Source of the DNA: Methylobacterium sp.
GTDB lineage: Bacteria; Pseudomonadota; Alphaproteobacteria; Rhizobiales; Beijerinckiaceae
Length of the DNA: 64,000 nucleotides
Reading direction: 5' to 3'
Assembly (NCBI GenBank): GCA_020253445.1
Contig: JADCBP010000005.1
Span: forward strand, 248,001-312,000
The notes below the pieces were generated by a model, which was not told the DNA's origin, made no database searches, and worked only from the letters and a program-made list of their open reading frames with translations. Position 1 is the first letter of the stretch. Each line of letters begins with the position of its first letter. The translations under genes and the position numbers were made by a program. Of this stretch, positions 45,349-62,728 are shown piece by piece.

Positions 45349-45913
45349 TCGGGGAATGCGCGGGAAGAGGGGGAGAAGTTTTTCCGCCCGCGCATGGGCG
45401 TTGATCTCGCCATGGCACATCCCGGCGCTGCGCATGCAGAATGCCATCCGGAATCCGCCGATGGCCCAGTGGCCGACGGGCGTTCTGCCTGCGGCTCCTG
45501 CTCGGGAACGGCGCCAGGAATGCCCATGCCGCCCCGCTCTCGATCCGCGAAAGATTGCAGCCTCCTGAGGGCTCATGGCATCGCCTCGATGCCGATTGAG
45601 ATCGAAAACACCTGCAAATGGCTGGCGCAAAACGGCCCTGCTGAAATCCGGCAAATCCTCGAACAGCCACCCGGGCGTGTCTATCGGCGCCCGGTTCCGC
45701 CCGCCGCCGGAGCCCGATGAGCCCGTTCCTCAACATTGGCAATTGGCGCATGCAGTTTAACCATATCTGCCAATAATGTCCCCTTTCGCGCATAAAAACC
45801 GCCTGTTGACGCATGGTGCACTGCAAAAATGCATTGACAGGGAGGTGCCGAATTCTCATGATGCCATTAACGAATTCTTTACTTATTGAAGTTGCGGAGT
45901 CGGGGAGCCGACC
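45349..45913. other. Intergenic region, no supported gene
   Basis: Frames here have no recognisable product and look like chance openings. A long-loop inverted repeat, ATGCGCGGG with CCCGCGCAT, lies at about 45356-45402 after pckA. The last 150 bases before the sugar transferase gene are more AT-rich and probably contain its promoter; no convincing -35/-10 pair was fixed. Confidence 0.6.
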
Positions 45914-47329
45914 ATGTATTTGGGAGTAGCGTATGGGTTTGCTGGTATCCGGAGGCGGCTGGCCAAGCGCCTTTCCCCTTTCACCGAGTTCCCCCTCCTG
46001 CGCCGCCGGCCTGGCCTTCTCGCATTTTTCGAATTCTTGCTGATCATCCTCGCCTGGATGGCATTTGGCTTCCTGACGCAATCGGGCAGCCATTGGCTTT
46101 CGGCTGACCCATGGAGCTTCGGCCTGTCTGGTCTGTTCTGGGGTTCTTCCTTCACGCTGATGGGCCTGTTCGATTTCACTTATCGCGCGGCTTTGCTGCG
46201 GTCGGGCTTGCGGGTGGAGCGTGCACTTCTGAACTGGCTGCTTGCTTGGGCCCTTCTCGTCACGCTTGCTGCTCTCCTGCATCCTGCCGACGCCACTGTG
46301 CGTGTGCTTGCGCTGACCGCTTTCCTTCTTTGCCTGCCGGTTGTTCTGGCTGTGCGCCACCAGGTCATCCGGCTCTTCTGCATGTTGCCAGGCCTGGCCC
46401 GGCGCGAGCGCATCGGCCACCTGCAGATTGGCGATGGGGAAGGGGTGTCTCGCGATCAGGGCAGCCGCCACCGCCTCGTTCATGCCCGGAAGCTGACGGC
46501 TGCCGAATGCCTCGAACTCCCCCATTGGAAGGTTCAGGATTTCATCGCACAGGCCTTGAGCGCCGATGCCAGTCCTTTCCTCGTCACGGCGGGCCGGGGC
46601 GACACGCCAAAGATCGACAACCTCGCTCCGATGTTCCGTGACCAGCCCAAGCCCGTGACATTCATCCTCGACGGCGCTTCGCGCTCGCTTTCGGTCCGCC
46701 GGGGGGAAGGCCAGGATGGCGGCGTCACCAGTCCTGCCGCGCATGATTTCGGCAAGCGTTTGCTCGATGTCGTGGTTTCCACGAGTGCAATCTTCTTCCT
46801 GTTGCCGGTGCTCGTGCTGGTCGCGCTCGCCGTATGCTTGAGTTCGCCCGGCCCCATCATCTTCCGCCAGTCACGCAATGGCCTCCACGGCCGCGAATTC
46901 ACGATCTACAAGTTCCGCTCCATGCGTGTGGAGGAAAACGGTTACAATTTGCGGCAGGCGACACGCAATGATGACCGCGTGACGGTTGTCGGCCGGTTTA
47001 TCCGGAGGACCAGCCTCGATGAGCTTCCCCAGCTCTTCAACGTTCTCATGGGAGATATGTCGCTGGTCGGGCCGCGACCGCACGCGATCGCGCATGACCG
47101 GCAATATCGCAAGCTGATCCCCGGCTACACCCGCCGCTGGGCTGCGAAACCGGGCATTACGGGGCAGGCACAGATTTCCGGCCTGCGTGGGGAAACCCCC
47201 GAGGTCTCGATGATGGCGGCGCGCATCGAGCAGGATCTCTGGTACGTGAAGAACTGGTCGCTGATGCTGGACATCAAGATCCTGTTCGCGACGCTGGTCT
47301 GCCTCATCCGCCACCGCGACATTTACTGA
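45914..47329 (+). CDS. Polyisoprenyl-phosphate hexose-1-phosphate transferase (WcaJ/GumD-like)
   Basis: A 471-residue inner-membrane initiating glycosyltransferase. Four hydrophobic helices occupy about residues 35-170, a soluble linker follows, then another hydrophobic segment (about 285-310) and the catalytic bacterial-transferase domain: KRLLDVVVS, SSPGPIIFRQSRNGLHG, FTIYKFRSMRVEE, RRTSLDELPQLFNVLMGDM, VGPRPHA, KPGITGQAQISGLRGET. It transfers a sugar phosphate to undecaprenyl phosphate and starts a surface-polysaccharide repeat. The linker retains little of the usual nucleotide-binding CoA_binding-3 domain. It heads a cluster of envelope genes. Confidence 0.88.
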   Translation: MYLGVAYGFAGIRRRLAKRLSPFTEFPLLRRRPGLLAFFEFLLIILAWMAFGFLTQSGSHWLSADPWSFGLSGLFWGSSFTLMGLFDFTYRAALLRSGLRVERALLNWLLAWALLVTLAALLHPADATVRVLALTAFLLCLPVVLAVRHQVIRLFCMLPGLARRERIGHLQIGDGEGVSRDQGSRHRLVHARKLTAAECLELPHWKVQDFIAQALSADASPFLVTAGRGDTPKIDNLAPMFRDQPKPVTFILDGASRSLSVRRGEGQDGGVTSPAAHDFGKRLLDVVVSTSAIFFLLPVLVLVALAVCLSSPGPIIFRQSRNGLHGREFTIYKFRSMRVEENGYNLRQATRNDDRVTVVGRFIRRTSLDELPQLFNVLMGDMSLVGPRPHAIAHDRQYRKLIPGYTRRWAAKPGITGQAQISGLRGETPEVSMMAARIEQDLWYVKNWSLMLDIKILFATLVCLIRHRDIY

Positions 47330-47409
47330 CAGGCGCCCCTTCGGCCGATTGCGTGACAGGCGTGCTGTGATGCAGAGCGGCTTGCAGGCCGGCAATCCTT
47401 CAGGCAAGG

Positions 47410-48816
47410 GTGTTTTCCCATGAATGGGGCTTCCTGTTGGATGCTCCTGAAGCCGGCTTTGCGCGTGCGGGAGTGACGCCATTGCTTGACAAGGCAGGTT
47501 CAACCACTGCCGGCGGATTGAAGAATCGGCGGCCGGAGTTGTTTCGGCCACCGCAAGATTATTTGTATTTCATCAACGCCGCTCTCTTCGCCATCACGAT
47601 CTTTCTGTCGATCGCCCTGGTGAAATTCGGGCCGCCGGGCCTGCCGTTGCGCGCGCTGACGGCCACTCTCATCCTGATCACCACATTCGTGGCGAGCCCC
47701 TGGATTTTCGGACAGGCCGTGCGCGCCGCGCTCCCGATCCTCGTCGTGATCCTTGTTTGTGCGCTGATTGCCCTGCTTTCGAGCACCCTGAACGCCTCGC
47801 CACCGGAAGTGATCCTCCGCCAATTACTGGAAATCCATGTCCAGGCGGCAATCGGCACGGTGGTGGGAGCTTGCCTCTTGCGCACCTGCGGCGCAGGCGT
47901 CGTGGTCAAGATCCTGGCCATGGGCGTTGCGCTCACCGTGTTCGTGGCCTTTTTCCAGTTTCTCGGCGTTTCGCCGGCCTGGGCGCTGCGCGAATTTCTG
48001 GATCGCATCCAGCCGGCGGATCTCAACCCCGATAGCATCTTCCTGACCATGCGCATGCGGGCCATGGGCCTATCCTACAGCCCGGTCCATGTGGGAACCC
48101 AGATCTGCCTCGCCTTTGCCGGCTGGGCCGCCTATGTCTTCGCCAAACTCGGGGCTGCGGCGAAAGAGCAGCTGAGCTGGCTCATCCTGGCGGGAGCGGT
48201 TTGCGTGCTCTTCGCGAGCCTGATCAGCGGAAACAGGTCGCCGATCCTCGGGATTGTGGTCTTCTGCATCGGCTATCTCTTTCTGGTGCGGCCGGCGATC
48301 GCCATCCTGCTGGCTCTTGCGATGGTGCCATCACTCTTCATCCTTGATGATATCATGCAGGATCTGGCCGAAGCCGGCCTGCGTGTGGCGCGGACGGATG
48401 ATGGCTCCTCCAGCAACCGGAGGGTCTTGCGGGCCTTCGGGTTCATGCTTTTCTTCGATCGTCCCTATGGCTATGGCCTATCTTTCAACAGCGTCGAACA
48501 CTGGTCCCATTATTGGGAGAAGCTGAAGCATTATCCAAATCCAATGGCGATCCAGCTGCACGCACTTCACAATTATTACATGATGATTCTGAACAAATAT
48601 GGTGGTCTCATTCTATTTGTATTTGCCTATGTGGTGGTGCTGCTGGTCAAGAACCCGATAGCGCTGCTCTGCCTCACGCCCTACATCATTCATATCTTTT
48701 TTCACAATGATGGACCGCTGCAGGCGGACTTCCTTATCTGGTACATGTTGCCGTCCCTGATTTACCTTACCGGGCTCTCCGAGCGTGGTTTGTCCCAGGG
48801 CCTCCCCCGAGGTTAA
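47410..48816 (+). CDS. O-antigen polymerase/ligase-like multi-pass membrane protein
   Basis: A 468-residue protein with about ten to twelve membrane helices and a large periplasmic loop before the last third (from about 300 to 390, containing RTDDGSSSNRRVLRAFGFMLF and ALHNYYMMILNKYGG). The R-R and H-N-Y pattern in that loop resembles Wzy polymerases and WaaL ligases. It follows the initiating transferase by 80 bases, so it probably polymerises or attaches the glycan made there. The frame begins with GTG 47410; the true start could be further in, and the first 45 residues are non-membrane. Confidence 0.75.
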   Translation: MFSHEWGFLLDAPEAGFARAGVTPLLDKAGSTTAGGLKNRRPELFRPPQDYLYFINAALFAITIFLSIALVKFGPPGLPLRALTATLILITTFVASPWIFGQAVRAALPILVVILVCALIALLSSTLNASPPEVILRQLLEIHVQAAIGTVVGACLLRTCGAGVVVKILAMGVALTVFVAFFQFLGVSPAWALREFLDRIQPADLNPDSIFLTMRMRAMGLSYSPVHVGTQICLAFAGWAAYVFAKLGAAAKEQLSWLILAGAVCVLFASLISGNRSPILGIVVFCIGYLFLVRPAIAILLALAMVPSLFILDDIMQDLAEAGLRVARTDDGSSSNRRVLRAFGFMLFFDRPYGYGLSFNSVEHWSHYWEKLKHYPNPMAIQLHALHNYYMMILNKYGGLILFVFAYVVVLLVKNPIALLCLTPYIIHIFFHNDGPLQADFLIWYMLPSLIYLTGLSERGLSQGLPRG

Positions 48817-49062
48817 GGCGAGCGGCATCAATCTGTTGGCTCCGGGCCGCGGCTGATTGCTGATTCCACTGCTTGCATCCCGCCCTGTGGCTTCCGGACC
48901 ACAGTCCTTTTGCCCAGTGGACTAGTCCATCCCCCAGTTTGCTCCCGGGAAACGCGGCTGCTTATCTCCGGCCATCGAAAAGGTGACCTTCTGCTTCGCT
49001 CACGGATTCGGCGAAAATGCCTGGCAGTCAGGATCACGGCAATGGGCTTGGGGGTTCTTCTG

Positions 49063-49983
49063 ATGCGGTTGACGCTTGGTGTTCTTGTGGCTGCGGGAAT
49101 GTTCGCGGCGCCATTCACGGCGACGGGCCAGACCCGGTTCAGCAATGCTGGGCTGCCCAAGCTTGAGGATGTCCGGACGCTGCAGCTGCCTGGCGTCTTT
49201 CTGGATGATCCAAACCGTGGCTTCCTGCACAGCTTCAAGCTTTCGGTAGATTTCGGTGTAGCCCTTACAGAAAAGCGTCGACAGCCCACGCAATTGAAGC
49301 AGAACAGCTACGGCACGCAGCTCGGCCTCAGCTTTGGCATTGGATCGATGGGTTTCGCCGCGATTTCCGGCAACTATTCGCGCGAGAACATCAAATCGAC
49401 CATCCTCGCCTTCCCGCTGTCGCTCGATGCGAATTCGGATGCCGGCGGAGGCGATATTGTGCTCGGCATTGCGCCGCTGCCGTTTCTGCGTGCCGGCGTG
49501 CTCGGCGGCTTCGGCGTTGGAAACAACGCCTACCAGTTCGTTGGCGTTCCGGCGGCGCCTGTGGGCGCAGACAGCTCCGGCTACCGCTTCGGCGGGTTCG
49601 TGGGCGCATCCTATCCCGTGGGGCCGGTGCTGCTTTCGCTCGATGCGACCGTCATCACCATTCGCAACCGGCAATATTATGGTCCGTCCAACTCCACGCC
49701 TGTGGCGCATTTCGGCTCCACGATCGGTCTGCTGCATCTCAACGCAATGTACAACATCACCGCGCGCCTGCGCCTGAATGCCGGCATCGTGCTGAACCAG
49801 GTGTTCTCGGAGAAGATCGCCCCGGCCGAGCGCGGTCTCGATCGCAGCTGGTTCACGCTGCAATCGGGCCTGACCTACCAGCTGAACGACCGCTGGGAAA
49901 TCTCGGTCAAGGGCCTGACCTGGCTCTCGAACCAGCGGATGCGTTACAGCCGGGCCTCCATCGGCGCCGCCTACCGGTTCTGA
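49063..49983 (+). CDS. Outer-membrane beta-barrel protein
   Basis: A protein of 306 residues from ATG 49063 (GGGGG lies a few bases upstream; ATG 49042 is in frame). It has a signal peptide (MRLTLGVLVAAGMFAAPF, cleavage near TATGQ) and a mature part of alternating amphipathic strands separated by Gly/Asn turns, ending in AAYRF with a C-terminal Phe, the usual barrel signature recognised by BamA. No named family is recognised. It lies 12 bases upstream of three lipoprotein genes, so an envelope complex with them is plausible. It could be a polysaccharide-secretion channel or a structural barrel. Confidence 0.72.
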   Translation: MRLTLGVLVAAGMFAAPFTATGQTRFSNAGLPKLEDVRTLQLPGVFLDDPNRGFLHSFKLSVDFGVALTEKRRQPTQLKQNSYGTQLGLSFGIGSMGFAAISGNYSRENIKSTILAFPLSLDANSDAGGGDIVLGIAPLPFLRAGVLGGFGVGNNAYQFVGVPAAPVGADSSGYRFGGFVGASYPVGPVLLSLDATVITIRNRQYYGPSNSTPVAHFGSTIGLLHLNAMYNITARLRLNAGIVLNQVFSEKIAPAERGLDRSWFTLQSGLTYQLNDRWEISVKGLTWLSNQRMRYSRASIGAAYRF

Positions 49984-49995
49984 GGAGCAACCGCC

Positions 49996-50724
49996 ATGCG
50001 GATGTTGCAACTTTCCAGGGCCATCCGTTCAGCGGTTGTCGCCTCGATGCTCGCCCTGTCCGTGGCGGGCTGCCTTACCCCTGACATCATGGTCACGTAT
50101 CTGCCCACCTTCCTTGCGAAAAGCGATGAGGAGCGCGCTTCCGAAATCAGGTCCCTGAGCAAGCCCAATAGCGATATCAACGACAGCTACTGGTCCGGAA
50201 TGCTCGGCAATTCCGTGATCTACCTGCCCGACAATTACCGGCAGGAATTGACCAAGGACGAGGATACCTTCCTCAAATATGCTATAGGTCCCATGCTGAA
50301 CCGGTTCGAAATCACCTATGACGAACTGGCCGACAAAATGCGTGAACGCGGTCATGCGGTGACGATCACGCGGGAAACATTCAATTACTACAAAGGTTTT
50401 GGCGCGGCTTGGGAAGCTGATCTCAAGCGTCGCAACCGGGGCATGACCGAGCGTTTCGAGTTGTTCAGAAAACGCGTTGGCAGCCGATACGCCGATTTGC
50501 TGCTGTTCAAGCCCGACATGGTCCGCACGCTCCTGCGCGATGATGCGAGTTTCGAGAAGTTCCTCCGGGATGATGGTTTCGCCACAGATTGGATGTTCGG
50601 CGCGATGGATCGGGGCTTCGGTATACACACGTTATTCGGCGGAAACCTCGCGGATGCCATGGATAACCCGGCCACGCTGCTCGCGCCGGTCACCATCGGT
50701 GTTCTTCCCGGCCTCGCCAGCTGA
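49996..50724 (+). CDS. Lipoprotein, paralogue 1 of a tandem triplet, unknown function
   Basis: A 242-residue protein with a lipoprotein signal (LALSVAGC, lipidated Cys26). The mature part is helical and charged, with conserved blocks shared with the next two genes: SDEERASEIRSLSK, GNSVIYLPDNYRQELTKDEDTFL, EITYDELAD, ITRETFNYYKGFG, LFRKRVGSRY, MVRTLLRDDASFEKFLRDD, and the end LLAPVTIGVLPGLAS. It is the most divergent of the three. I do not recognise the family. It starts 12 bases after the barrel gene and is likely transcribed with it. No sorting Asp at position +2 (Leu27), so outer-membrane delivery is expected. Confidence 0.8.
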   Translation: MRMLQLSRAIRSAVVASMLALSVAGCLTPDIMVTYLPTFLAKSDEERASEIRSLSKPNSDINDSYWSGMLGNSVIYLPDNYRQELTKDEDTFLKYAIGPMLNRFEITYDELADKMRERGHAVTITRETFNYYKGFGAAWEADLKRRNRGMTERFELFRKRVGSRYADLLLFKPDMVRTLLRDDASFEKFLRDDGFATDWMFGAMDRGFGIHTLFGGNLADAMDNPATLLAPVTIGVLPGLAS

Positions 50725-50736
50725 TCCTAGACAGGA

Positions 50737-50753
50737 GGGTCGGTTGCCGGCCC
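50737..50753 (+). repeat. Hairpin between lipoprotein genes 1 and 2
   Basis: GGGTCGG-TTG-CCGGCCC followed by TTTCC forms a 7-bp stem (one G-U pair) 12 bases after the stop of gene 1. A near-identical copy lies between genes 2 and 3, as part of the duplicated unit. Confidence 0.6.
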
Positions 50754-50779
50754 TTTCCGCAATTCCCAGAGGTTTTTCC

Positions 50780-51532
50780 ATGCCCAGGCGAATGTCCCTC
50801 GTTTCCCGGTTCCTTGCTGCGGCCAGCCTCTTCGCCGCACTGGTTGCGCTGCCCGCCTGCACAAATGTCGATCCTGGCGTCCTTCAGGGCGCTCTCCATT
50901 CGCATTTCGGCAAGAACTCAGAGGAACGGAAGGCGGCTCTTGAGGCACTGGCCAAGAACGAGAACTGGATCGCCCAGCAAGTTTTCAACACCGCCCTTGG
51001 CGATGCGATCTTCTATCTTCCCGACAGCTATCCGCGGGATCTGACGAAGAACGAGGATGTTTTCCTCAATCACATCGTCGGTGCCTACCTCGCGCGATTT
51101 CCGGAAGTAACCTACGAGATGATCGACACCTACGTGGCCGGTCTCGGCATTGACAACGTTCTCGACAAGGCCGGCATCACCCGCGAGCGTTTCGAATATG
51201 CCAGAGGGTTTGGCCGCGTCTGGCTGAAGAGTATTGAGGACGATCCCAAGAACAAGGCGATGAAGGAGCGTATTGCGCTCTTCCAGAAGAGGTTCGGGAG
51301 CCGAAATCCGAAATATTACACCAGCATCTTTTCGCCGCATAAAATTCGAGCCCTGCTGCGTGATGACAAGGCGTTCGAGGCCTTCCTGAAAGACGACAAT
51401 GCGGCTGCAGCCTGGGTGGATGCCAACCAGGATAGCAACAAAACCGTGCGGGATGGGACATTCCGGGATTTCTCGATCCGCGAGCTGCTCGCGCCGGTCA
51501 CCATCGGTGTTCTTCCCGGCCTCGCAAGCTGA
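50780..51532 (+). CDS. Lipoprotein, paralogue 2 of a tandem triplet, unknown function
   Basis: A 250-residue lipoprotein (VALPAC, lipidated Cys near residue 26) closely similar to the next gene over its whole length, including the start MPRRMSLVSRFLAAA, the blocks NSEERKAALEALAKNE, LPDSYPRDLTKNEDVF, EVTYEMIDTY, GITRERFEYARGFGRVWLKS, KIRALLRDDKAFEAFLKDD and the end RELLAPVTIGVLPGLAS. The start is ATG 50780; the frame is open further upstream, overlapping gene 1, without support. The near-identity with gene 3 extends into the upstream non-coding DNA, which argues for a recent duplication of an 809-base unit. Confidence 0.8.
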   Translation: MPRRMSLVSRFLAAASLFAALVALPACTNVDPGVLQGALHSHFGKNSEERKAALEALAKNENWIAQQVFNTALGDAIFYLPDSYPRDLTKNEDVFLNHIVGAYLARFPEVTYEMIDTYVAGLGIDNVLDKAGITRERFEYARGFGRVWLKSIEDDPKNKAMKERIALFQKRFGSRNPKYYTSIFSPHKIRALLRDDKAFEAFLKDDNAAAAWVDANQDSNKTVRDGTFRDFSIRELLAPVTIGVLPGLAS

Positions 51533-51545
51533 CCACATGACAGGA

Positions 51546-51562
51546 GGGCCGGTTGCCGGCCC
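51546..51562 (+). repeat. Hairpin between lipoprotein genes 2 and 3
   Basis: GGGCCGG-TTG-CCGGCCC followed by TTTCC is a perfect 7-bp stem 13 bases after the stop of gene 2. It differs from the copy between genes 1 and 2 by one base that keeps the stem paired. Confidence 0.65.
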
Positions 51563-51588
51563 TTTCCGCAATCTCCAGAGGTTTACCC

Positions 51589-52335
51589 ATGCCCAGGCGA
51601 ATGTCCCTCGTTTCCCGTTTCCTCGCTGCGGCCGGCCTGCTGGCTTCCATGACGTTGCTGCCTGGCTGCAGATTGGATCCGACCACCCTTCAAGGTGCTC
51701 TCAATTCGTATTTCGGCCAGAGCTCAGAGGAACGGAAGGCGGCTCTTGAGGCACTGGCCAAGAACGAGGACGGGGTCGGCCAGGCAATTTTCAATACGGC
51801 GCTTGGCGATACGATCTACTATCTTCCCGACGGCTATCTGCGGGATCTGACGAAGAACGAGGATGTTTTCTTCAACTATATTGTCGGCGCCTTTCTCGCG
51901 CGCGCTCCGGAAGTGACCTACGAGATGATCGACACCTTCGATGCGGGTTTCGGCATTGACAACGTTCTCGACAAGGCCGGCATCACCCGAGAGCGTTTCG
52001 AATATGCCAGAGGATTTGGCCGCGTCTGGCTGAAGAGCATTGAGGATGATCCCAAGAACAAGGCGTTGAAGGAGCGTGTCGCGCTCTTCCGCAAGAGGTT
52101 CGGAAGTGGAGACAAAAAGTATTACCGCATCTTTCCGCCGCATAGAATTCGAGCCCTGCTGCGCGATGACAAGGCGTTCGAGGCCTTCCTGAAAGACGAC
52201 AATGCGGCTGAAGCCTGGGTGTTTGCCAATGCGGACCGCAGCAAGACCGATCAGGAAGGGACATTCAGTTACATCTCGATCCGCGAGCTGCTGGCGCCGA
52301 TCACGATTGGTATCCTTCCCGGCCTCGCAAGCTGA
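51589..52335 (+). CDS. Lipoprotein, paralogue 3 of a tandem triplet, unknown function
   Basis: A 248-residue lipoprotein (TLLPGC, lipidated Cys near residue 26). It is the near-copy of gene 2, with small differences concentrated in the early mature region and in a segment near residues 180-220 (SGDKKYYRIFPPHRI against the SRNPKYYTSIFSPHKI of gene 2). It ends RELLAPITIGILPGLAS. ATG 51589 matches the start of gene 2; an upstream TTG at 51553 is in frame but inside the hairpin. The invariant C terminus in all three suggests a shared contact or localisation signal. No domain assignment is possible by eye. Confidence 0.8.
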   Translation: MPRRMSLVSRFLAAAGLLASMTLLPGCRLDPTTLQGALNSYFGQSSEERKAALEALAKNEDGVGQAIFNTALGDTIYYLPDGYLRDLTKNEDVFFNYIVGAFLARAPEVTYEMIDTFDAGFGIDNVLDKAGITRERFEYARGFGRVWLKSIEDDPKNKALKERVALFRKRFGSGDKKYYRIFPPHRIRALLRDDKAFEAFLKDDNAAEAWVFANADRSKTDQEGTFSYISIRELLAPITIGILPGLAS

Positions 52336-52348
52336 CGGGAGGGTTTGT

Positions 52349-52379
52349 GAGCCCCCGCCCCGCTCCCGGGCGGGGGCTC
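52349..52379 (+). terminator. Hairpin ending the lipoprotein operon
   Basis: GAGCCCCCGCCC and GGGCGGGGGCTC form a perfect 12-bp stem with a 7-base loop, 14 bases after the last lipoprotein stop. The T-run after it is weak (TCATTC), but stem strength and position fit a terminator. Confidence 0.7.
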
Positions 52380-52450
52380 TCATTCGCGGCGCCTCCGAAC
52401 CAAAAAGGAACCGGCCTTCGCCGGGTAGCCCGGAGGGTGGCCCAAGCCGG

Positions 52451-53092
52451 TCAGCCGGAGATCAGCGCCTCTATCGTCGGCCGCACGGAGAGCAAGGCGA
52501 GGACAAAGAACAACCCAGCGACGATACGTGACCATGCTGGAAGCGCGGATGCTATCCGCCGGCGCATGGGAGCATGAGAGAACACCGCCGCAACCGCAAG
52601 CGAATTGGAAAGGGCGAGCGCTGCGGTCGCGAGTATGAGCGCAAGCGCGGGCAGCCAGGGCAGGTCACCGGCGGGACCGATGAACTGCGCGGCAAAGAAC
52701 ATGCCGCTCATCGGATTGGTCGAGGAGGTGCCGAAACCAACCGCCAGGTCGGTGAGGCGACCGGCGGGTCCCTTGGCCGAGGCTCGGGTGTCAGCGCAGA
52801 GCCGCTTGGCTGACTTCAGGATGCGCCAGCCCATCATCGCAAGCAGGAAGGCCGAGAGGCCTCGCCCGATCACCTCCCAGGAATCGCCACCAGGCAGGAG
52901 GCCGGCACCGACGAAAAAGACGAAAGCCTGGATCGCCGCTCCCAGGCCGACACCCATCGCGAGGGGAAGCGTCGCGGTGAAACCGTGCAAGGCTGCGAAG
53001 CTCCCGGTAGCGAGCATGTTCGGCCCGGGCACCGCCAGGAGCAGGATATAGTTCATGAGATATGCGGCCAGAAACGAATATGAAATCAGCAT
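52451..53092 (-). CDS. LysE/RhtB-family exporter
   Basis: A 213-residue inner-membrane protein with six helices. The family hallmark is the N-terminal LLLAVPGPNMLATGSFAALHGFT with the PGPN motif, and the middle GFGTSSTNPMSGMFFAAQF matches the conserved NPK/NPM loop. Members export amino acids such as lysine, threonine or homoserine lactone; the substrate is not readable. It is transcribed toward the lipoprotein operon, convergent with it. Confidence 0.87.
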   Translation of the reverse strand: MLISYSFLAAYLMNYILLLAVPGPNMLATGSFAALHGFTATLPLAMGVGLGAAIQAFVFFVGAGLLPGGDSWEVIGRGLSAFLLAMMGWRILKSAKRLCADTRASAKGPAGRLTDLAVGFGTSSTNPMSGMFFAAQFIGPAGDLPWLPALALILATAALALSNSLAVAAVFSHAPMRRRIASALPAWSRIVAGLFFVLALLSVRPTIEALISG

Positions 53093-53223
53093 TATTGAAG
53101 TTTGCCCTTTCTGGCGGTGCGGATCAGATATCCACGCGGCTGCCCTGGCGGCGATGATGACCCGCCGGTTGCGCTCGGCCTTGGTTCATGCGTCCGCCTC
53201 GCGGCGTCACGCCGACGGCGACC

Positions 53224-53463
53224 TCATCGAAATCGGTGGGTCGCTTCACGCAGGCAGCCGCGGAGGCGGAACAGGTTCAGCGGCAGCAGCAGGCCATGCA
53301 GGATCAGGATGGGGACGAGGCCGAGCAACAACCCGTAGGCGATGAACAGCAGATTGGCCGCGATGGCCCAACAGCGCAGCGCGAGAATATGCCGACATCT
53401 AAAGGCGGCGACCGTCATGCCGCCGGCCAGGAAGCCGACGAGATCCGCGATGTTGCCCCACAT
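53224..53463 (-). CDS. Small multi-helix inner-membrane protein
   Basis: A 79-residue protein with two to three hydrophobic helices (MWGNIADLVGFLAGGMTVAAF, LRCWAIAANLLFIAYGLLLG, LILHGLLLPLNLFRL). The pattern recalls YgjV-type small inner-membrane proteins, in which a helix ends in a NxxR motif (here LNLFRL). Function unknown. It lies upstream of the LysE gene on the same strand with 131 bases between. Confidence 0.6.
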   Translation of the reverse strand: MWGNIADLVGFLAGGMTVAAFRCRHILALRCWAIAANLLFIAYGLLLGLVPILILHGLLLPLNLFRLRGCLREATHRFR

Positions 53464-53677
53464 TTGCTAACCCTCTGCCCCCTGGCGCCGGTCAGGCCCG
53501 CCTTTTCTTCAACGGAATGCGCGTCGCCACAATGGCTTTCGGGGCGAAAGCGTCGGACTAGTCCAACGCCGAGGCTATGCGTCGAGATGCCCTCTGGATG
53601 TATTGCGCCATCCGGTTTGTGATGATCATCCTCGCGGGTGAGCCCCGGATGTCGTTTTCGCGGAAGGCATCACTCGG

Positions 53678-54277
53678 GTGTATCGAATGCGTCGGTTGAA
53701 CATCCTGATTGTCGATGATCATCCCCTGGTTCGGGTAGGCCTGCGGACAGCCTTGCAGGCTGCCTTTCCTGGCGTGTTGGTCGAGGAATGCGCCGCTTTG
53801 GCCGAAGCGAGGGCGAGGCTGCTGGCTGGCCCTCTCGATGCCTTGATTCTCGATCTCGCCCTGTCGGATTCAAGCGGAGCCGAGACCTATCTGGCGCTCC
53901 AGCACCTCTGCCCCGGCCTGCCGGTCATCATCATGACGGGCACCGATCCGCGCGATCTTCTGGCCTTGCCGGCCTTCGAAGGGGCCGCCGGTGTGCTTTG
54001 GAAGGCGGATGGTCCGGAGGCCATCCTTTCTGTTCTGGCAGAGCTGATGAGTTGCGAGGCGGAAACGCTGGACGGCACGAGCCGCCCTGTTCTCACCGCC
54101 CGCGAGCGGGATATCCTGGTTCTCTGCGCACGCGGCCTTCAGAACAAGGTGATCGGCCGCAGCCTTGGAATCAGCGAGAATACCGTCCGCGCGCATCTCG
54201 CCAGCGTGTTCAAGCGCTTTGGGCTCGCGCATCGCGGCGAGGTCAGGGACTTTCTGGAGCGCGCGCGGATCGGCTGA
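53678..54277 (+). CDS. LuxR/NarL-type response regulator
   Basis: A 199-residue regulator (196 if ATG 53687 is used instead of GTG 53678). The receiver has ILIVDDHPLVRVGL, phospho-acceptor D59 (ALILDLALSD), MTGTD and the switch lysine in GVLWKADG. The C-terminal helix-turn-helix is LTARERDILVLCARGLQNKVIG and ISENTVRAHLASVFKRFG. It is convergent with the hybrid kinase gene and the two coding regions overlap by 35 bases at their 3' ends, so they are probably cognate partners. Confidence 0.88.
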   Translation: MYRMRRLNILIVDDHPLVRVGLRTALQAAFPGVLVEECAALAEARARLLAGPLDALILDLALSDSSGAETYLALQHLCPGLPVIIMTGTDPRDLLALPAFEGAAGVLWKADGPEAILSVLAELMSCEAETLDGTSRPVLTARERDILVLCARGLQNKVIGRSLGISENTVRAHLASVFKRFGLAHRGEVRDFLERARIG

Positions 54278-56015
54278 GCAGAAACGCCTCGTCGAGCTTC
54301 TCGCGCAGGTCGTGTGCGCCCACCGGTTTCTGCAGCACGAGAATGTTCTCCTCCGGTTTCGGCGCAGCCGGGTCCGCCGTCACCAGCAGGGCGGGGATGG
54401 GAAAGCCGGCACGCGCCCGGATGGTGCGGATCAGGTCGAGCCCGTCCATCGCGCCCGGCAGGCGAAGATCCGACACGATGACATCCGGCAGCGCGCCGCC
54501 GGCATCCAGATCCGCCAGCGCCTGCCCGGCCTCGGCGCTGGTCACGACCGCATAGCCCCAACCCGCCAGCAACTCGCGCAGGATGTCGCGCGCCGGCGCG
54601 TGATCCTCCACGAGCAGCAGGCGGCCGGCGGCAGGTCGCGCTGGCGTTTCGAAGACCCGTATCTTGGCCATCACCTCGATATGGGGCAAGGCCGCAGCGG
54701 CCGGAAGCGTGATCGCGAACATCGAACCCTGGCCGGGCCATGAACGCACCGTGACAATTCCCCCGATCAGCTCGGCCATGCTGCGCGCGATGGTGAGCCC
54801 CAGGCCATGCCCGCGCCCGGCTTGCCTGCCGGGATTGGCGAGCTGGTGAAACGGCTCGAAAATGCGCGTCAGATCCTCCTCCGCGATACCGGGCCCGGTA
54901 TCCCAGACCTGCAATTCGAGCTTATCCCCACGAAGCCGGACGCCGACGAGAACACGCCCCCTCTCGGTGTATCGCACGGCATTGCCGACAAAGTTCCGCA
55001 GGATCTGCGTGAGAAGGGTCGTTTCGCCCAGCGCCCAGCGGCTTGTTCCCACGAAGCAGAGATCGAGCGACTTGTTGGCCGCCTCGACCGCGAATTCCAC
55101 CCCGACCTGACGGAAAACCGTGGCGAGCTCGACCGGCGCAAGGCGGGGTTCATAGCCCTTCGAGCTGGCCCGCGCCGCTTCGAGCATGCGCTCCAGCAGA
55201 TCGGAGATCGCATTGACCGATTCCCCGATGCTCGCGATCCGTTCGGCCCGGAGGTCCTTGCCGTCATTCCCGAGGGAATCGAGCAGCAGGCGGATCGCGT
55301 AGAGCGGCTGGCGCAGGTCATGGCCCGCTGCCAGCAGGAAGCGCGTTTTTTCGCTGTTCGAGCGCTCCGCACGGTCGCGCGCCTCGGCCAGTTCTCGCGA
55401 GAACGCCTTCTCCTGGTTCCGAAGCCGGATGAGATCCCGCATCGTCCGGTTCTGCAGCATCGAATAGCCGAGATGCGTGACGAGAAATACAAGCCCCAGC
55501 AAGGCCATCCAGCGACTGGTCTCGTCGTCGGCAAGCGCGAACCGCGCCACGACCGGGCCCATCGCGCTGAGCGCGAAGGCGGCATAGACAAGCCGATCCG
55601 CCGAAAGCGAGGCAACGGAGCCCGCCGTGAGGCCCACGAGCATCATGATGATGAAAAGCATCAGGGGCGCATCGCCCGAGCCGGTCACCACCCAACCGAA
55701 CCAGCCGAACAGGCTGCCGGAAGCAAGGCTGCCCAGCGTGAACCCGGTGCGCCAGATCCAGAGCGGCATATCGGTGCGCAAGCGCCAGTAGGCCAGCACG
55801 AAAAGCCCGCGCAGGGCGGCGAGCACGATTGCTGCGATCAGCCAGTTCCAGGCCAGCGCGCTGGGGCCGAGGCGCAGGCCATGCACATAGGCCGCCGTGG
55901 GGGCCACCACCAGCACGGCGCCAAGAACGATCGGCATTTGCCGGGCCAGCAGCTCGAGCAGTTCGCCCGCGTCATCCGACCCGCCAATCTGCGCCTTCGA
56001 TGTCTGGCCTGTCAT
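54243..56015 (-). CDS. Hybrid sensor histidine kinase with C-terminal receiver
   Basis: A 590-residue inner-membrane protein. About six helices fill residues 28-190 with no sizeable periplasmic domain, followed by a short coiled coil and HisKA with H232 (LAAGHDLRQPLYAIRL, the HDLRQP subtype). The ATPase domain has NFVGNAVRYTERG, WDTGPGIAEEDL and RGHGLGLTIAR. A receiver at about 465-580 has DD-type acid in LLLVEDHAPA and D516 (IVSDLRLPG). The kinase would pass phosphate through its own receiver or to the LuxR-type regulator. It is divergent from the Amt-MCP gene, so a link to nitrogen sensing is possible but not shown. Confidence 0.9.
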   Translation of the reverse strand: MTGQTSKAQIGGSDDAGELLELLARQMPIVLGAVLVVAPTAAYVHGLRLGPSALAWNWLIAAIVLAALRGLFVLAYWRLRTDMPLWIWRTGFTLGSLASGSLFGWFGWVVTGSGDAPLMLFIIMMLVGLTAGSVASLSADRLVYAAFALSAMGPVVARFALADDETSRWMALLGLVFLVTHLGYSMLQNRTMRDLIRLRNQEKAFSRELAEARDRAERSNSEKTRFLLAAGHDLRQPLYAIRLLLDSLGNDGKDLRAERIASIGESVNAISDLLERMLEAARASSKGYEPRLAPVELATVFRQVGVEFAVEAANKSLDLCFVGTSRWALGETTLLTQILRNFVGNAVRYTERGRVLVGVRLRGDKLELQVWDTGPGIAEEDLTRIFEPFHQLANPGRQAGRGHGLGLTIARSMAELIGGIVTVRSWPGQGSMFAITLPAAAALPHIEVMAKIRVFETPARPAAGRLLLVEDHAPARDILRELLAGWGYAVVTSAEAGQALADLDAGGALPDVIVSDLRLPGAMDGLDLIRTIRARAGFPIPALLVTADPAAPKPEENILVLQKPVGAHDLREKLDEAFLLSRSARAPESP

Positions 56016-56340
56016 GGAGCTGCCTGCTCAGCGCATCATGGATCGATCCTGCCCTTTGCGGTTTACCGGGCCGGTGTTGAGCCTGCAAGTCCGGCGCGCG
56101 GAAGTGTTCGACCTCGAGGCAGAACAGGCAATTCCAGAAATCTGCGCATGATCCGGCTGCCAGAGAACGGAAAAAACATGCGATTTCTGCTCAGGAACCA
56201 GCAAGCATATTGTCTTTTGCATTAATGCATGTGAAGGCAGGCTGATTTTTGCGCAGTTTTCACCGCTCGTTTACCGAAAAACTGCATCTTCTCCTCCCGC
56301 GAGGTTCCGAAATCGAACCATTCCGGCGTTGGGAGGCAGA
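56016..56340. promoter_or_regulatory. Divergent promoter region between hybrid kinase and Amt-MCP genes
   Basis: This 325-base region separates two divergent genes and should hold both promoters. A 12-base perfect palindrome, TGCATTAATGCA, lies at 56218-56229 in an AT-rich stretch about 110 bases before the Amt-MCP start. GGGAGGCAGA directly precedes ATG 56341 as ribosome-binding site. No sigma-54 site with correct spacing was found. Confidence 0.5.
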
Positions 56341-58779
56341 ATGCCCGTCCGTCTGTTCAGCCGTTTTGCGGTTTCAAGCTCAGCGCTCGTCGTTCTGGGT
56401 GCTTCCAGTGCTTTCGCCGCTGCTCCACCGGATCTCGCGAAACTCGCGGGCGATGTCGAGCAATTGCGCGCGCATCTGAACCATGTCTGGGTGATGACCG
56501 CTGCCGCCCTCGTGTTGCTGATGCAGGCCGGGTTTCTTCTGCTGGAAGCGGGCATGGTCCGCTCGAAGAACTCCATCAATGTGGCGCAGAAGAACGTCGC
56601 GGACTTCTTCGTCTCCGCTGCCTGCTTCGCCGTTTTCGGTTTCATGATCATGTTCGGCCCCACGGTCATGGGGCTGTTCGGGTCGCCGGGCACGCTCTGG
56701 GGCTATTCCGGCCTCGATGAATGGACCTATACCTTCTTCGTTTTTCAGGTGGCCTTTGCCGGCACGGCCGCGACGATCGTCTCCGGTGCCGTGGCCGAGC
56801 GCATGAGCTATGCGGCCTATATCGTGCTGGCGTCCGTCGTCGGCCTGCTGATCTATCCGGTTTTCGGCCATTGGGCCTGGGGCGCGGGCCTCGTGACGGA
56901 GAACAAGCCCTGGCTTGCCGCCAGCGGCTTCATCGATTTCGCCGGTTCCACCGTGGTGCATTCCGTCGGTGCATGGATCGCGCTGGCCGGCATCATCATC
57001 CTGGGACCGCGCATCGGCCGCTTCGATGCCAATGGCAGGGCCTTGCCGATCCATGGCCATTCGCATGTGCTGAGCGCCATGGGCGCCATGCTGCTCCTGG
57101 TGGGGTGGATCGGCTTCAATGCCGGCTCCACCGCAGTGGCCAGTGGCGCGGTGGGCAAGATCGCTGCGAACACGCTGCTGGGTGCTTCCTTCGGCGGCAT
57201 CGTCGCAATGCTGATCGGCCGCGCGAAGGATGGGACCTACCTGACCAATCGCCTCGTGAATGGCCTGCTCGCGGGACTTGTCGGCATCACCGCCGGTTGC
57301 GATGCCGTCGGTCCCAAGGGCGCCATCGCGATCGGCGCGATCTGCGGAGCATCGGTGGTCTTTGTCGAGGATTTCGTGCTCCACCGGATGAAGCTCGACG
57401 ATGTCGTCGGCGTGGTGGGCGTGCATGGCGTTTCGGGGGTGCTCGGCACGTTGCTGGTGCCCTTCTTCGCGATGCCCGAGAAGCTGAACGGGCTGACTGT
57501 GATGGGTTCATTTCTTGTTCAGGCGAAGGGGGCAGGCGCGGCCTTCCTCTGGGCCTTCGGGATGGGTCTCCTGACATTCTGGGTGATGAAGGTGACCATC
57601 GGCATCCGCCTTTCGGAAGAGGACGAGATGCGTGGCCTGAATGCCGCCGAGCACGGGGCCGCGATCGGCACGGGTGCCCTTCAACAGGAACTCTACCGCA
57701 TCACCCAGCTCGAGCGCGACCTCACCCGTCGTCTTGATGCGGCCTCGGGTGACGAAGCGGCGGAGATCGCCCAGATCATCAATCCGTTTCTGGATGAGTT
57801 TCAGCGCGTGCAGGCGGACATCGCCCGGCATGCGACCCGCATCAACAAGGCTTCCAGCGTGATCGGCGGGCTCTCCGACCAGTTCCTGCAGGATTCGAGC
57901 GCCGTTTCCTCCACCTCCGGCAAGATGGCGGTGGCCGCCGCCTCGCTCAGCGGGCGGGCCAGCGCGGCGGTTGGCCAGGCCAGCGGCCTGCGCGAGGGCG
58001 CCGAGCGCGTTTCCCTTGCCGCGCGGGACATGACCCTGCGTATCCAGGAACTCGCCGATCGCATGGGCCAGCTCTCCCTTTCGGTGAGCGACGTGGCCCA
58101 TGCCGCCCGCAACGGGCGCTCGGTCTCGCAAAGCGCCAATGCGGTGATCGGTGAATCTGAAAGCCAGATGGTGAACCTCGTCGCGGCCTCCAATCAGATC
58201 AACGAGATTGCCGAACTCATCGAGGGCATTGCCTCCAGCACCAACCTTCTCGCCCTCAATGCCACCATCGAGGCCGCGCGTGCGGGGGAGGCTGGCAAGG
58301 GTTTTGCCGTGGTCGCGTCCGAAGTGAAGGCGCTGGCAAACCAGACCCAGCGGGCCACAGCCGATGTGAAGGCCCGGGTGGCGGCGATGCGTGCCGGCAC
58401 CGAGCAGGCGACCCGAGGCTTCGCCATGCTCAGGGATGTGCTCGGCGACATCAACCGGACGATCGGCATCATCGCCGACACCGCGGAAGCGCAGGCCTCG
58501 CTTGCCCGCCACGTCAATGACGACGTGCAGGAAGTGGCCGGGAAGGTCGAGGTCGTGGCGCAATCCGTGGATCGGATGTCCGGCGAAGTCGGCTCGATCT
58601 CGAACTACATGAACGATGCGAACCAGGCCATTTCATCCGCCGCCAACGATGCAGAGGCCGTGAACCAGGTGGCGGCGAAGTCACTCGATTCCGCCGGAGC
58701 GCTGGATGACCGAGCGAAGGAACTGGGCTCGATTTCCGATGAGCTTCAGCGATCCGCGAGGCGCTTCAAGGTGGCGTGA
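56341..58779 (+). CDS. Ammonium transporter fused to a methyl-accepting chemotaxis signalling domain
   Basis: One 812-residue frame. A signal peptide (to about residue 27) precedes a full Amt/MEP channel (about 45-425) with the twin pore histidines H207 ([12 protein letters not shown]) and H362 ([13 protein letters not shown]), the [12 protein letters not shown] segment and the C-terminal AEHG signature. After a coiled linker, residues about 500-810 form an MCP cytoplasmic domain with the conserved tip [21 protein letters not shown] (in part) that binds CheA and CheW. No HAMP and no separate periplasmic sensor are present, so the channel itself is the likely ammonium sensor. The frame is intact and base use is uniform, so this is a real fusion, not an artefact of a missing stop. 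Confidence 0.93.
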
Positions 58780-59667: not shown

Positions 59668-60720
59668 ATGTTTTTTAATCGAATCTTTGGCAACGACGGC
59701 TCGAACAGGATTATCGGAACCGCCCGCAATGATATGATTTACGGTTATGGCGGAGACGACACCCTCGATGGCGGCGAGGGCAATGATGTGCTCTATGGCG
59801 GCGCTGGCAGCGATCTCCTTATGGGTGGCGCGGGCGACGACCAGCTGTCGGGCGGTGAAGGCGCCGACATGATGTATGGCGGCACTGGCAACGACACCTA
59901 TTTTGTTGATGATGTTGGCGATATGGTTGTTGAGCTTGGCGGGGAGGGCATAGACACGGTTGTGTCGACCTTCAGCTACACATTGGGTGCCAATCTCGAG
60001 GTCCTGCGTCTTTCTGGAACCGAAAATATCTTCGGCCGGGGCAATGAGCTGAACAATACAATCCACGGCAACTCGGGCAACAACAACCTCTACGGTGCTG
60101 AGGGGGACGACAGCATCAGCGGCTGGGATGGCAATGACATCATCGGCGGTGGCCCGGGAAATGACTGGCTTTCCGGCGGCAACGGCATCGACCTGCTGAC
60201 CTACAAGGTTGGCACGATGACCGGCGTGAACGTCGATCTGGCGGTCACCGCCCGGCAGGATACCGGCGGCGGCGGCAAAGATCTGGTTTTCGGCTTCGAA
60301 AATCTTGAGGGCACGTTCTTCAACGATCGTCTCTTCGGCGATAGCGGCGACAACAAGATTGCTGGACTCTCGGGCAATGACTACATCCGGGGCCGCGCGG
60401 GCAACGATGACATCACGGCAGGTGATGGGGCTGACACGGTTCGTCTCGAAGCGGCTGGGGCGGCGAATGGTGTGGATCGCATCCGCGGCTTCGAGTCGGG
60501 TGTGGACAAGCTTGAATTCAGCGCTGCCGAGTATCATTCCTCCGCCGGCTTCACGTCGGGCAAGGTAGCGGTTGGTGCCGGAGCGCAGTTCATTTTCGAC
60601 ACCCAGCTCGATACGCTTTCCTATGATGCGGATGGCGCGGGTGGTTCGGCTGCGGTTCTGATCGCCAACTTCGCGACGCTCTCTGCGGACATTCAGGCGA
60701 CGGACCTCGTCTTTGTCTGA
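59668..60720 (+). CDS. RTX-type calcium-binding protein, probable type I secretion substrate
   Basis: A 350-residue protein without an N-terminal signal peptide, made of glycine-rich nonapeptide repeats of the GGxGxDxL type ([49 protein letters not shown], then further blocks from 115 to 165 and 225 to 270). Such repeats fold as a parallel beta-roll on binding calcium outside the cell. The C terminus ([16 protein letters not shown]) resembles the uncleaved secretion signal of RTX proteins. No catalytic domain is visible, so it may be an adhesin or matrix/S-layer protein. The transporter and adaptor genes follow immediately, and a terminator lies after the stop. Confidence 0.88.
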
Positions 60721-60744
60721 TCCTGATCCCTGCGGCGATTGTGG

Positions 60745-60773
60745 CGGGGCGCCTTGTGCGCCCCGTTTTTTTT
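60745..60773 (+). terminator. Rho-independent terminator after the RTX gene
   Basis: CGGGGCGC and GCGCCCCG form an 8-bp stem with a 5-base loop (CTTGT), directly followed by eight T residues. It would allow more RTX transcript than transporter transcript from one upstream promoter, or separate the two units. Confidence 0.88.
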
Positions 60774-60970
60774 ACGCTTTGCGCAGGGTGACCGGGCGCA
60801 TGAGGGCCGGGTGAAGTCTGATGCGCCATGCATTCCAACGGTGAATTCTCCCCCAAGAGGACCTGTCGTCACATCTTAAGAATGTTTTGATTTTTCGCTG
60901 CGGTGCGGCAGTGGACCTGTGCTAAGATTATTTTGCAGGCAATCATGCTTGCACCAGAGCAGCCATTCCG

Positions 60971-62728
60971 ATGACTTATTTTTCGCCCCTGGCACGCACG
61001 TTTCTCAAGGGTCATTCCAGTACGATTTCCTACATTGTCGGCCTTTCAGCCGCAGTGAACTTTCTCGCGCTGACTGGCGCGGTTTACATGATTCAGATCT
61101 ACGATCGCGTTCTCGTTTCAAAAAGCGGCGCGACCCTGGTCTATGTCACGCTGATCATGCTGGTTCTGTATGGTTTCTATTATTTGTTTGATCTTTATCG
61201 CTGCAATGTCATGTCGCTGGTTGGTCGCCAATTCGAGGAAACCTACACAGAGCAGGTGCTTGCGCGGACACTCTCCATGCAAGTCGAAAGTGCGCAGCGT
61301 GAGCGAAATTCCAACGCGATGCGTGATCTGGAAGAGGTCGGGCGGTTTATTTCAAGCAGCGCCCCGATCGCCGTGTTCGATCTGCCGTGGATTCCGATCT
61401 TCATCGTCGTTTGCTTTCTTTTCCATCCCATCATTGGCGCCGTTACATTATTGTTTCTATGCCTCGCAATCGCGCTGATGGTCATCGGCGAGCGCCAGAT
61501 CCGTGCGGCCTCGGACGGAGCAGCCGACGCCCTTCGATCGCGCGCCGTGGCGGTCGACACGGCGGTGCGCAATGCTGAAGCCATCGTCGCCATGGGAATC
61601 GGGCAGTCGATGCAACATCGCGTCCTGCGTTTCACGCGAAGCTATCTCAATGCGGCCTCGCCGATGGCTCGCAACATGATCCGTATCTCGGGCATGACAC
61701 GCACGATCCGGCTCATCATCCAGTCGCTCTTGCTGGGCATTGCCGCCTGGCTCGTGGTGATCGATCAGGCGACTCCGGGTGTCATGATCGCCTCTGCGGT
61801 CGTGGCTGGGCGGGCGCTGGCACCCATTGATGCCATTGTTGGCCGCTGGCGGCAATTCGTGCAGATGCAGGAATGCTGGCGGCGGCTGGAGAAACTCCTT
61901 CTGAACGACGCTCAGGGCTCCGACGTGGTGCAATTGCCCCCACCCACGCGGATCATCACGGTCGACGATGTTTCGGTGGGACCGCTCGGTTCGCCGAAAC
62001 CCTTGGTGCGGAATGTGACCTTTTCACTCCGGGCCGGCGATCGGCTCGGGATCATTGGCCCCAGCGGTTCGGGCAAGTCGACTCTGGTGCGTGCCATCAC
62101 GGATGTCTGGCGTCCCTGCAACGGTTCCGTGCGATTTGACGGCGCCGAACTTCGCCAGCATGCGCCGGAACAACGCGCCCGGATCATCGGCTATCTTCCT
62201 CAGGACGTGCAGTTGCTGCGCGGAACCGTTGCCGAGAATATCTGCCGCTTCGATCCTCATTCGACAGCGGCGGAGATGGTGGCGGCTGCGAAGGCGGCCG
62301 GCGCACATGAAATGATCCTTTCGCTGCCCAATGGGTACATGACGGATGTGGGCGAGAATGGTTCGAACATCTCGGGGGGGCAGCGACAGCGGATCGGCCT
62401 CGCGCGTGCTCTTTATGGAGATCCATTCCTCGTCATCCTCGATGAGCCGAACTCCAACCTCGATGCCAATGGCGAGAAGTCGCTCAACATGGCCATCCGG
62501 GGGGTCGCTGCGCGAGGTGGTATCGTGATCATCGTCGCGCACCGGCTGAGTGCCTTGAAGGATACCAACAAACTGCTCCTGCTGGTGGATGGACAGGTGC
62601 AAGCCTTCGGCACAAGCGACGAGGTGATGGGGCTTCTCTCCGGTGGCGTGAAGCCCGAAGCCAAGCCGCAAGTTTCGAATCTGCCACCGGAAAAAGGCGC
62701 TTCCACTCAGGATAAGCAATCCGCATGA
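60971..62728 (+). CDS. Type I secretion ABC transporter (PrsD/AprD-like)
   Basis: A 585-residue inner-membrane half-transporter: six membrane helices (about 20-310) and a C-terminal ATPase with Walker A GPSGSGKSTLV (about residue 365), Q-loop LPQDVQLL, signature SGGQRQRIGLARAL, Walker B FLVILDEPNSNLD and the switch histidine in IIVAHRLSAL. It lacks a C39 peptidase-like domain, as expected for the PrsD/AprD/LipB group that exports RTX proteins. The stop overlaps the adaptor start (ATGA). The outer-membrane TolC partner is not encoded here. Confidence 0.93.
   Translation: MTYFSPLARTFLKGHSSTISYIVGLSAAVNFLALTGAVYMIQIYDRVLVSKSGATLVYVTLIMLVLYGFYYLFDLYRCNVMSLVGRQFEETYTEQVLARTLSMQVESAQRERNSNAMRDLEEVGRFISSSAPIAVFDLPWIPIFIVVCFLFHPIIGAVTLLFLCLAIALMVIGERQIRAASDGAADALRSRAVAVDTAVRNAEAIVAMGIGQSMQHRVLRFTRSYLNAASPMARNMIRISGMTRTIRLIIQSLLLGIAAWLVVIDQATPGVMIASAVVAGRALAPIDAIVGRWRQFVQMQECWRRLEKLLLNDAQGSDVVQLPPPTRIITVDDVSVGPLGSPKPLVRNVTFSLRAGDRLGIIGPSGSGKSTLVRAITDVWRPCNGSVRFDGAELRQHAPEQRARIIGYLPQDVQLLRGTVAENICRFDPHSTAAEMVAAAKAAGAHEMILSLPNGYMTDVGENGSNISGGQRQRIGLARALYGDPFLVILDEPNSNLDANGEKSLNMAIRGVAARGGIVIIVAHRLSALKDTNKLLLLVDGQVQAFGTSDEVMGLLSGGVKPEAKPQVSNLPPEKGASTQDKQSA

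Follow-up and report, generated by a model that had tools for sequence, protein, structure and literature searches.

Why would three lipoproteins with divergent bodies keep nearly the same last 15 residues, and why should their genes stand directly behind that of an outer-membrane beta-barrel protein? This question is raised by a 64,000-nt stretch of Methylobacterium sp. DNA (GCA_020253445.1, contig JADCBP010000005.1, positions 248,001 to 312,000), which we refer to as the window. A first reading of its letters without database searches (the sequence-only reading) had described three tandem lipoprotein genes encoding 242, 250, and 248 residues, sharing a C-terminal motif and beginning 12 nt after a barrel gene. 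Reading frames and alignment confirm this arrangement: all three proteins align over their full length and end in LLAP[VI]TIG[VI]LPGLAS, hereafter the tail. The answer that we favor, with a probability of about 0.5, is that these genes form an operon-like cassette whose products, an outer-membrane barrel and its lipoproteins, would make up a complex, with the tail as the barrel-binding element common to the divergent bodies.

The lipoproteins belong to a small family that has no name as yet and whose members are helical and probably lipid-anchored. Each of the 15 members has a single cysteine, which follows the signal peptide and is aligned in all 15. A strict lipobox pattern is matched by eight members, and the other seven have proline at position −2, including those of window genes 2 and 3 (LPAC and LPGC). 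We infer both the lipidation of these proteins and their cellular location. Profile searches, including Pfam and NCBIfam, gave no significant match to a curated family, so the family stays unassigned, as the sequence-only reading had left it. In the AlphaFold model of lipoprotein 2 (predicted local distance difference test score, pLDDT, 79.8), the body is all-helical and the tail is a weak extended end; pLDDT averages 62 over the last ten residues, in a model that drew on an alignment of only six sequences. No solved fold in the PDB matched the helical body significantly, and it may be a fold without a relative there.

The family is rare in the samples searched. Its 15 members occur in eight genomes, seven of the 17 of the genus and a single genome of another family (three members in the window; two each in PAR1 and G117; four in G166; one each in DS2.3.33, G153, G192, and G471). 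Only the top candidates of a first pass are scored in these searches, which may therefore have missed some members. A protein query found relatives in seven of the 298 genomes of the family sample, all from the window's genus and with its own genome counted, and a 14-row lipoprotein profile matched the same seven of the 17 genus genomes. Among 397 sampled genomes of the order, this profile matched the window's genome and G471, which belongs to another family. With G471 added, it matched one of 136 genomes of that family (G471 itself) and one of 385 genomes of the class (the window's own). Within the window's genome, a search at E values up to 10 gave no copy beyond the three. A pattern scan of genome contigs pointed to two loci in metagenome-assembled genomes, Methylobacterium sp. 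DS2.3.33 (L004) and Rhizobiales bacterium PAR1 (L005). No relative was found in viral contigs (lipoprotein profile), phages (lipoprotein 2), or plasmids (lipoprotein 2 and cassette DNA), collections in which the barrel protein was not searched separately.

The barrel gene shares this restricted distribution. A 10-row barrel profile matches the same seven of the 17 genus genomes as the lipoproteins and none of the other ten. The seven joint presences arise by construction, since the profiles were built from those genomes; the ten joint absences are the actual test. Moreover, behind 10 of the 11 barrels in the eight genomes, a lipoprotein gene comes next on the same strand after 11–96 nt. Among these ten are the pair from another family and two additional, divergent pairs carried by a single genome; G166 alone has three barrels in three pairs plus a fourth lipoprotein by itself. 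The linkage to the barrel that the sequence-only reading had pointed out thus extends to other genomes, both in presence and in gene order. Copy number, which it had proposed to compare across relatives, ranges from one to three lipoproteins behind the main-locus barrel. Single-protein structure prediction, another of its proposals, gave 12 strands for the barrel at low confidence (pLDDT 47), the first strand beginning at residue 56 of 306. The generic Pfam family OMP_b-brl (PF13505) was matched by 6 of the 11 barrels at E values up to 1. Against its curated cutoff, those of G471 and PAR1 and the second barrel of G166 score above, and the third G166 barrel and a distant barrel at L049 below. 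Neither the window's own barrel nor that at L019 matched it. A match of two barrels to NtrZ (PF20841) was set aside, being short and below the cutoff.

Two settings depart from the simple pair. The stretch L017:10867-18004 holds two pairs of barrel and lipoprotein genes and one further lipoprotein gene by itself, amid open reading frames (ORFs) that look transposase-like by eye, without a profile search, a setting that suggests movement or rearrangement. Two members without a barrel directly upstream, at L017:14313-14990 and L020:6758-7435, carry a twin-arginine SRRFIL stretch ahead of the cysteine.

Part of the sharing of the tail within the window can be traced to the history of the array. 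The gene 1 protein is 40–41% identical to those of genes 2 and 3, whereas the latter are 78% identical to each other and about 85% identical in DNA, with a synonymous divergence (dS) of 0.28–0.30. Repeats at a start-to-start spacing of 803–809 nt join genes 2 and 3 including their upstream DNA. The sequence-only reading had taken these for near copies in an 809-base unit and concluded that the array grew recently. The repeat is real, but "near copies" is too strong at this level of identity, and with dS at 0.28–0.30 the duplication is not very recent. Copies of a 49-nt block at 50676, 51484, and 52287 encode the three tails, and the repeat edge falls inside the tail-coding block of gene 1, not at any gene start. 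Genes 1 and 2 agree at 44 of 45 nt of tail DNA as against 49% of body DNA, and their similarity continues across the intergenic spacer and on into the following gene. For genes 2 and 3, tail and body DNA are 87% and 85% identical. On the simplest reading of these letters, unequal crossing-over between two tail-coding blocks would have duplicated a unit of about 809 nt made of tail block, intergenic DNA, and gene body, possibly with later conversion. Because the repeat begins in the tail block of gene 1, the near-identity of the first two tails in DNA owes something to duplication or conversion and cannot be put down to selection alone. The block shows one change in 49 nt, against the 15% to be expected at the rate of the remaining DNA (p = 0.003), a scarcity that may reflect either conversion or constraint. 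Trees support the pairing of genes 2 and 3 well. Deeper in the lipoprotein tree, support is weak and branches are very long, and the order of the older duplications is therefore left undrawn.

Since duplication partly explains why the divergent gene 1 retains the tail, its conservation was tested on other genomes. We compared the 61 of 91 pairs among 14 aligned members whose bodies are less than 45% identical, excluding windows in which gaps exceed 20%. Of 188 windows of 15 columns, the tail ranks first in conservation, with 63% identity against 31% for the body; two of these pairs set window gene 1 against gene 2 or 3, where duplication contributes. The mostly gapped block immediately ahead of the tail region falls to 7% identity. 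Conservation of the terminus, which the sequence-only reading had stressed, holds among divergent members, but the match between genes 1 and 2 is weakened as independent evidence of selection, as the duplication edge lies inside the block.

The tail is also specific to the family. In the 17 genus genomes, the strict DNA pattern G-[VI]-L-P-[GA]-L-A-S-stop occurs 12 times, by coordinates always at the end of a family gene and never on a protein outside the family. With no mismatch allowed, it has no match in the 10 cassette-free genomes, and a reversed-pattern control gave none. A role of the tail as a turnover signal for a periplasmic C-terminal processing protease is very improbable. Its end, -LAS, offers the small non-polar residues that proteases of the Prc/CtpA type are said to read, but 15 conserved residues would seem to exceed what such a signal needs, the strict pattern's absence from other proteins of the 17 genomes speaks against it, and the barrel would be left unexplained. 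Sortase-type sorting is likewise unlikely, because in all 15 members the last 40 residues lack a membrane-spanning stretch (19-residue hydropathy −0.25 to 1.47) and the last 15 contain zero or one lysine or arginine. Of the two roles that had been suggested for the terminus, binding or sorting, binding is the one we favor.

The strict pattern misses 2 of the 14 genus lipoproteins, the G117 orphan (ILPSLAS) and that of the third G166 pair (ALPNASP); the G471 lipoprotein ends in VSPGTAS. Relatives without the motif had been named in advance as a finding that would count against the sequence-only reading, and this applies in part. Two of the 15 members, those of the third G166 pair and of G471, have strongly altered tails, and both are paired with the most divergent barrels, 41% and 36% identical to the window's. 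Across 45 comparisons among 10 cognate pairs, barrel and tail identity show a rank correlation of 0.85. Furthermore, the two tails of PAR1 are 80% identical to each other versus 67–73% to their window counterparts, with bodies at 29%, which fits a common partner or, again, conversion.

In the arrangement that we favor, a barrel of about 12 strands would sit in the outer membrane, an N-terminal lipid would anchor the helical lipoproteins, and the constant C-terminal tail, carried on a variable linker, would dock on or in the barrel. One barrel could serve one to three lipoproteins, presumably co-transcribed with it, whose bodies would be free to diverge while the shared partner holds the tail constant. 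Shared use of one barrel by several lipoproteins, with the tail as the contact, would lead one to expect joint inheritance, near-constant gene order, variable copy number, a tail kept constant behind a variable linker, and bodies that change faster. The ratio of non-synonymous to synonymous divergence (dN/dS) is 0.23–0.30 for lipoproteins between genomes and 0.10–0.17 for barrels (four comparisons each), and 0.43 between genes 2 and 3; lipoprotein bodies do change faster.

Rapid body change would also fit surface exposure, as would be expected if the barrel served for export and the tail as a temporary address. The lipoproteins would then pass through the barrel to the surface of the cell, much as in Slam/type 11 secretion, although channel and signal would be unrelated to those. 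Export would further account for several lipoproteins per barrel that share a C-terminal element and otherwise differ. By comparison, the barrels match no type 11 family, and the position of the first strand, in a poor model, leaves little space for a domain ahead of the barrel. Barrels of about 12 strands may also be too narrow for a folded helical domain. Finally, the lipoprotein 2 model lacks the C-terminal 8-stranded barrel of cluster 1 cargo (PMC12282271). We rank docking above export, which we regard as doubtful, given that the barrel looks small and seems to lack an added domain. There is a more far-reaching form of the docking proposal, which we put forward only tentatively and do not expect to hold in full. 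In this form, the cassette would be an undescribed docking or display system in which a small barrel recognizes a 15-residue, hydrophobic, proline-bounded tail; divergent helical lipoproteins of a new fold would be loaded on, or exported through, one barrel, and the set would expand by recombination between tail blocks.

Several findings weigh against docking. First, the barrel at the second locus of G117 has no lipoprotein gene behind it, the nearest being 1.7 kb off on the opposite strand. Second, distant barrels occur in G888 and G1052 (the class search matched 3 of 385 genomes, the window's own included). No family lipoprotein was found in the 15–18 kb around them, nor in these genomes at E values up to 0.01, an empty answer that is weak by itself; the barrel type is therefore not confined to the pair. 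Third, the genus members are close kin, so their co-occurrence counts few independent events. Fourth, barrel identity tracks the lipoprotein body (rank correlation 0.93) as well as it tracks the tail, and shared descent alone could produce both correlations. Finally, a second segment, LLRDDKAFEAFLKDD, nearly matches the conservation of the tail at 60%, the best window elsewhere. A segment so nearly as conserved would suit a tail with a structural role inside the lipoprotein itself or in a homodimer, the barrel being a functional neighbor without contact. Such a tail would not be expected to come after a gapped, hypervariable linker, nor to be placed in the model with the low confidence seen over its last ten residues. 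We consider a purely internal role unlikely and rank docking above it. Separately, the distant barrels lie at L049:7718-8680 and L050:4054-4956, next to genes that look LolA- and FtsK-like by eye.

Features of the cassette and its flanks are listed below. ORF calls for genes 2 and 3 start upstream at TTG codons (50477 and 51553). We prefer the ATG codons at 50780 and 51589 as plausible starts because signal peptides come next.

Table. Features of the barrel/lipoprotein cassette and its flanks (positions in the window)
Feature	Position	Strand	Description and evidence
Outer-membrane beta-barrel protein	49063..49983	+	306-aa ORF; signal peptide, C-terminal Phe, about 12 predicted strands
Lipoprotein 1	49996..50724	+	242 aa, divergent copy; open frame; Cys aligned in 15/15 family members
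Lipoprotein 2	50780..51532	+	250 aa; open frame; AlphaFold pLDDT 79.8, all-helical
Lipoprotein 3	51589..52335	+	248 aa; open frame
Tail of lipoprotein 1, LLAPVTIGVLPGLAS	50677..50721	+	Within the 49-nt block common to copy 2
Tail of lipoprotein 2, LLAPVTIGVLPGLAS	51485..51529	+	Alignment of the three genes and tail pattern
Tail of lipoprotein 3, LLAPITIGILPGLAS	52288..52332	+	Alignment of the three genes and tail pattern
Duplicated unit, copy 1	50676..51483	+	Gene 1 tail-coding block, intergenic DNA, gene 2 body
Duplicated unit, copy 2	51484..52286	+	Gene 2 tail-coding block, intergenic DNA, gene 3 body
Short GC-rich hairpin, first intergenic stretch	50737..50763 (copy 51546-51572)	+	z −0.14 and −1.10 versus shuffles
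12-pair GC-rich hairpin 3′ of gene 3	52349..52379	+	z −2.33; 8/200 shuffles equally stable
LuxR-type response regulator	53678..54277	+	Near the main-locus cassette in 7/7 cassette-bearing genus genomes
Hybrid histidine kinase	54243..56015	-	Near the main-locus cassette in the same 7 genomes; also in 2 cassette-free genus genomes

The hairpin 3′ of gene 3 is a possible candidate for the operon end; it has no T run, and the terminator scan did not report it. The intergenic hairpins were considered as attenuators and rejected, their stability being no better than that of shuffled sequence. A promoter scan found none, as against 1.3 expected by chance.

In the window, genes for a sugar transferase (45914-47329) and a Wzy-like protein (47410-48816) lie just upstream of the barrel gene on the same strand, which would suit a cassette belonging to exopolysaccharide export. 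Neither gene was found in the roughly 2 to 8 kb searched upstream of the main-locus cassette in six relatives (G471 was not checked), so any such link is not general, and we give this explanation very little credence. On the other side, a LysE-like gene and a small ORF separate the cassette from the regulator and kinase in the window. The kinase (E ≤ 1e-100) is present in 9 of the 17 genus genomes, including all seven with the cassette (Fisher p = 0.002). A dedicated control system was nevertheless rejected, as the association is equally explained by linkage and shared descent. The interval from PEPCK to the regulator (45350-53517 in the window) varies in length, about 8.2 kb here versus about 2.8 kb in G179, which has the kinase but no cassette and whose PEPCK DNA is 94% identical. 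The G179 interval gave no cassette match and only a LysE-like stretch at 31% identity. Being short and cassette-free, it shows that the region is variable, the cassette having been lost there or gained elsewhere.

Two side observations come from further along the window. An 816-aa ORF at 56329-58779 joins an ammonium transporter domain (PF00909) to a chemotaxis-receptor signaling domain (PF00015); a literature search found no paper title on such a fusion. At 59668-62728, a 350-aa protein with RTX calcium-binding repeats is followed by an ABC transporter ORF, which looks like type I secretion.

It is useful to compare the cassette with known systems. It resembles Slam/type 11 secretion in that an outer-membrane barrel gene adjoins genes for lipoproteins that have a C-terminal element in common and otherwise differ. 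There, cluster 1 cargo carries a C-terminal 8-stranded beta-barrel domain and cluster 3 cargo does so only rarely (PMC12282271). By contrast, the lipoprotein 2 model has an all-helical body and a 15-residue tail, with no such domain. DUF560/SlipAM is not among the seven Pfam families listed for the 11 barrels (hmmscan, E up to 1). The widespread LptD/LptE pair is similar in that a lipoprotein works with an outer-membrane barrel partner. It consists of a 26-strand barrel around an LptE plug (PMC4353691). By contrast, the barrel of the cassette has about 12 predicted strands, is rare in the searched samples, and can go with as many as three lipoproteins. The Pfam matches listed for the lipoproteins and barrels include no LptE or LptD family. 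The sorting tags LPXTG, PEP-CTERM, and GlyGly-CTERM share with our tail a conserved C-terminal position on secreted proteins and a many-to-one pairing with a membrane protein. They combine a motif, a transmembrane helix, and a basic cluster in a tripartite structure, and the proteins that bear them are usually alike only in the tag region (PMC3237569). The tail here has neither helix nor basic cluster and is confined to one family; no CTERM model is among the NCBIfam matches of the three window proteins (E up to 10). OMP_b-brl, finally, is a generic family of which a lipoprotein partner is not a defining feature, and the window's barrel does not match it. Among the titles listed by literature searches, a weak test of what is in print, there was none on a barrel/lipoprotein pair of this kind. 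If the tail does bind the barrel, a short and perhaps transferable peptide would dock lipoproteins on an outer-membrane barrel; the barrel/lipoprotein pairs known to us use whole domains instead. An address of only 15 residues would lend itself to testing and would offer a useful comparison for how lipoproteins are recognized at the outer membrane.

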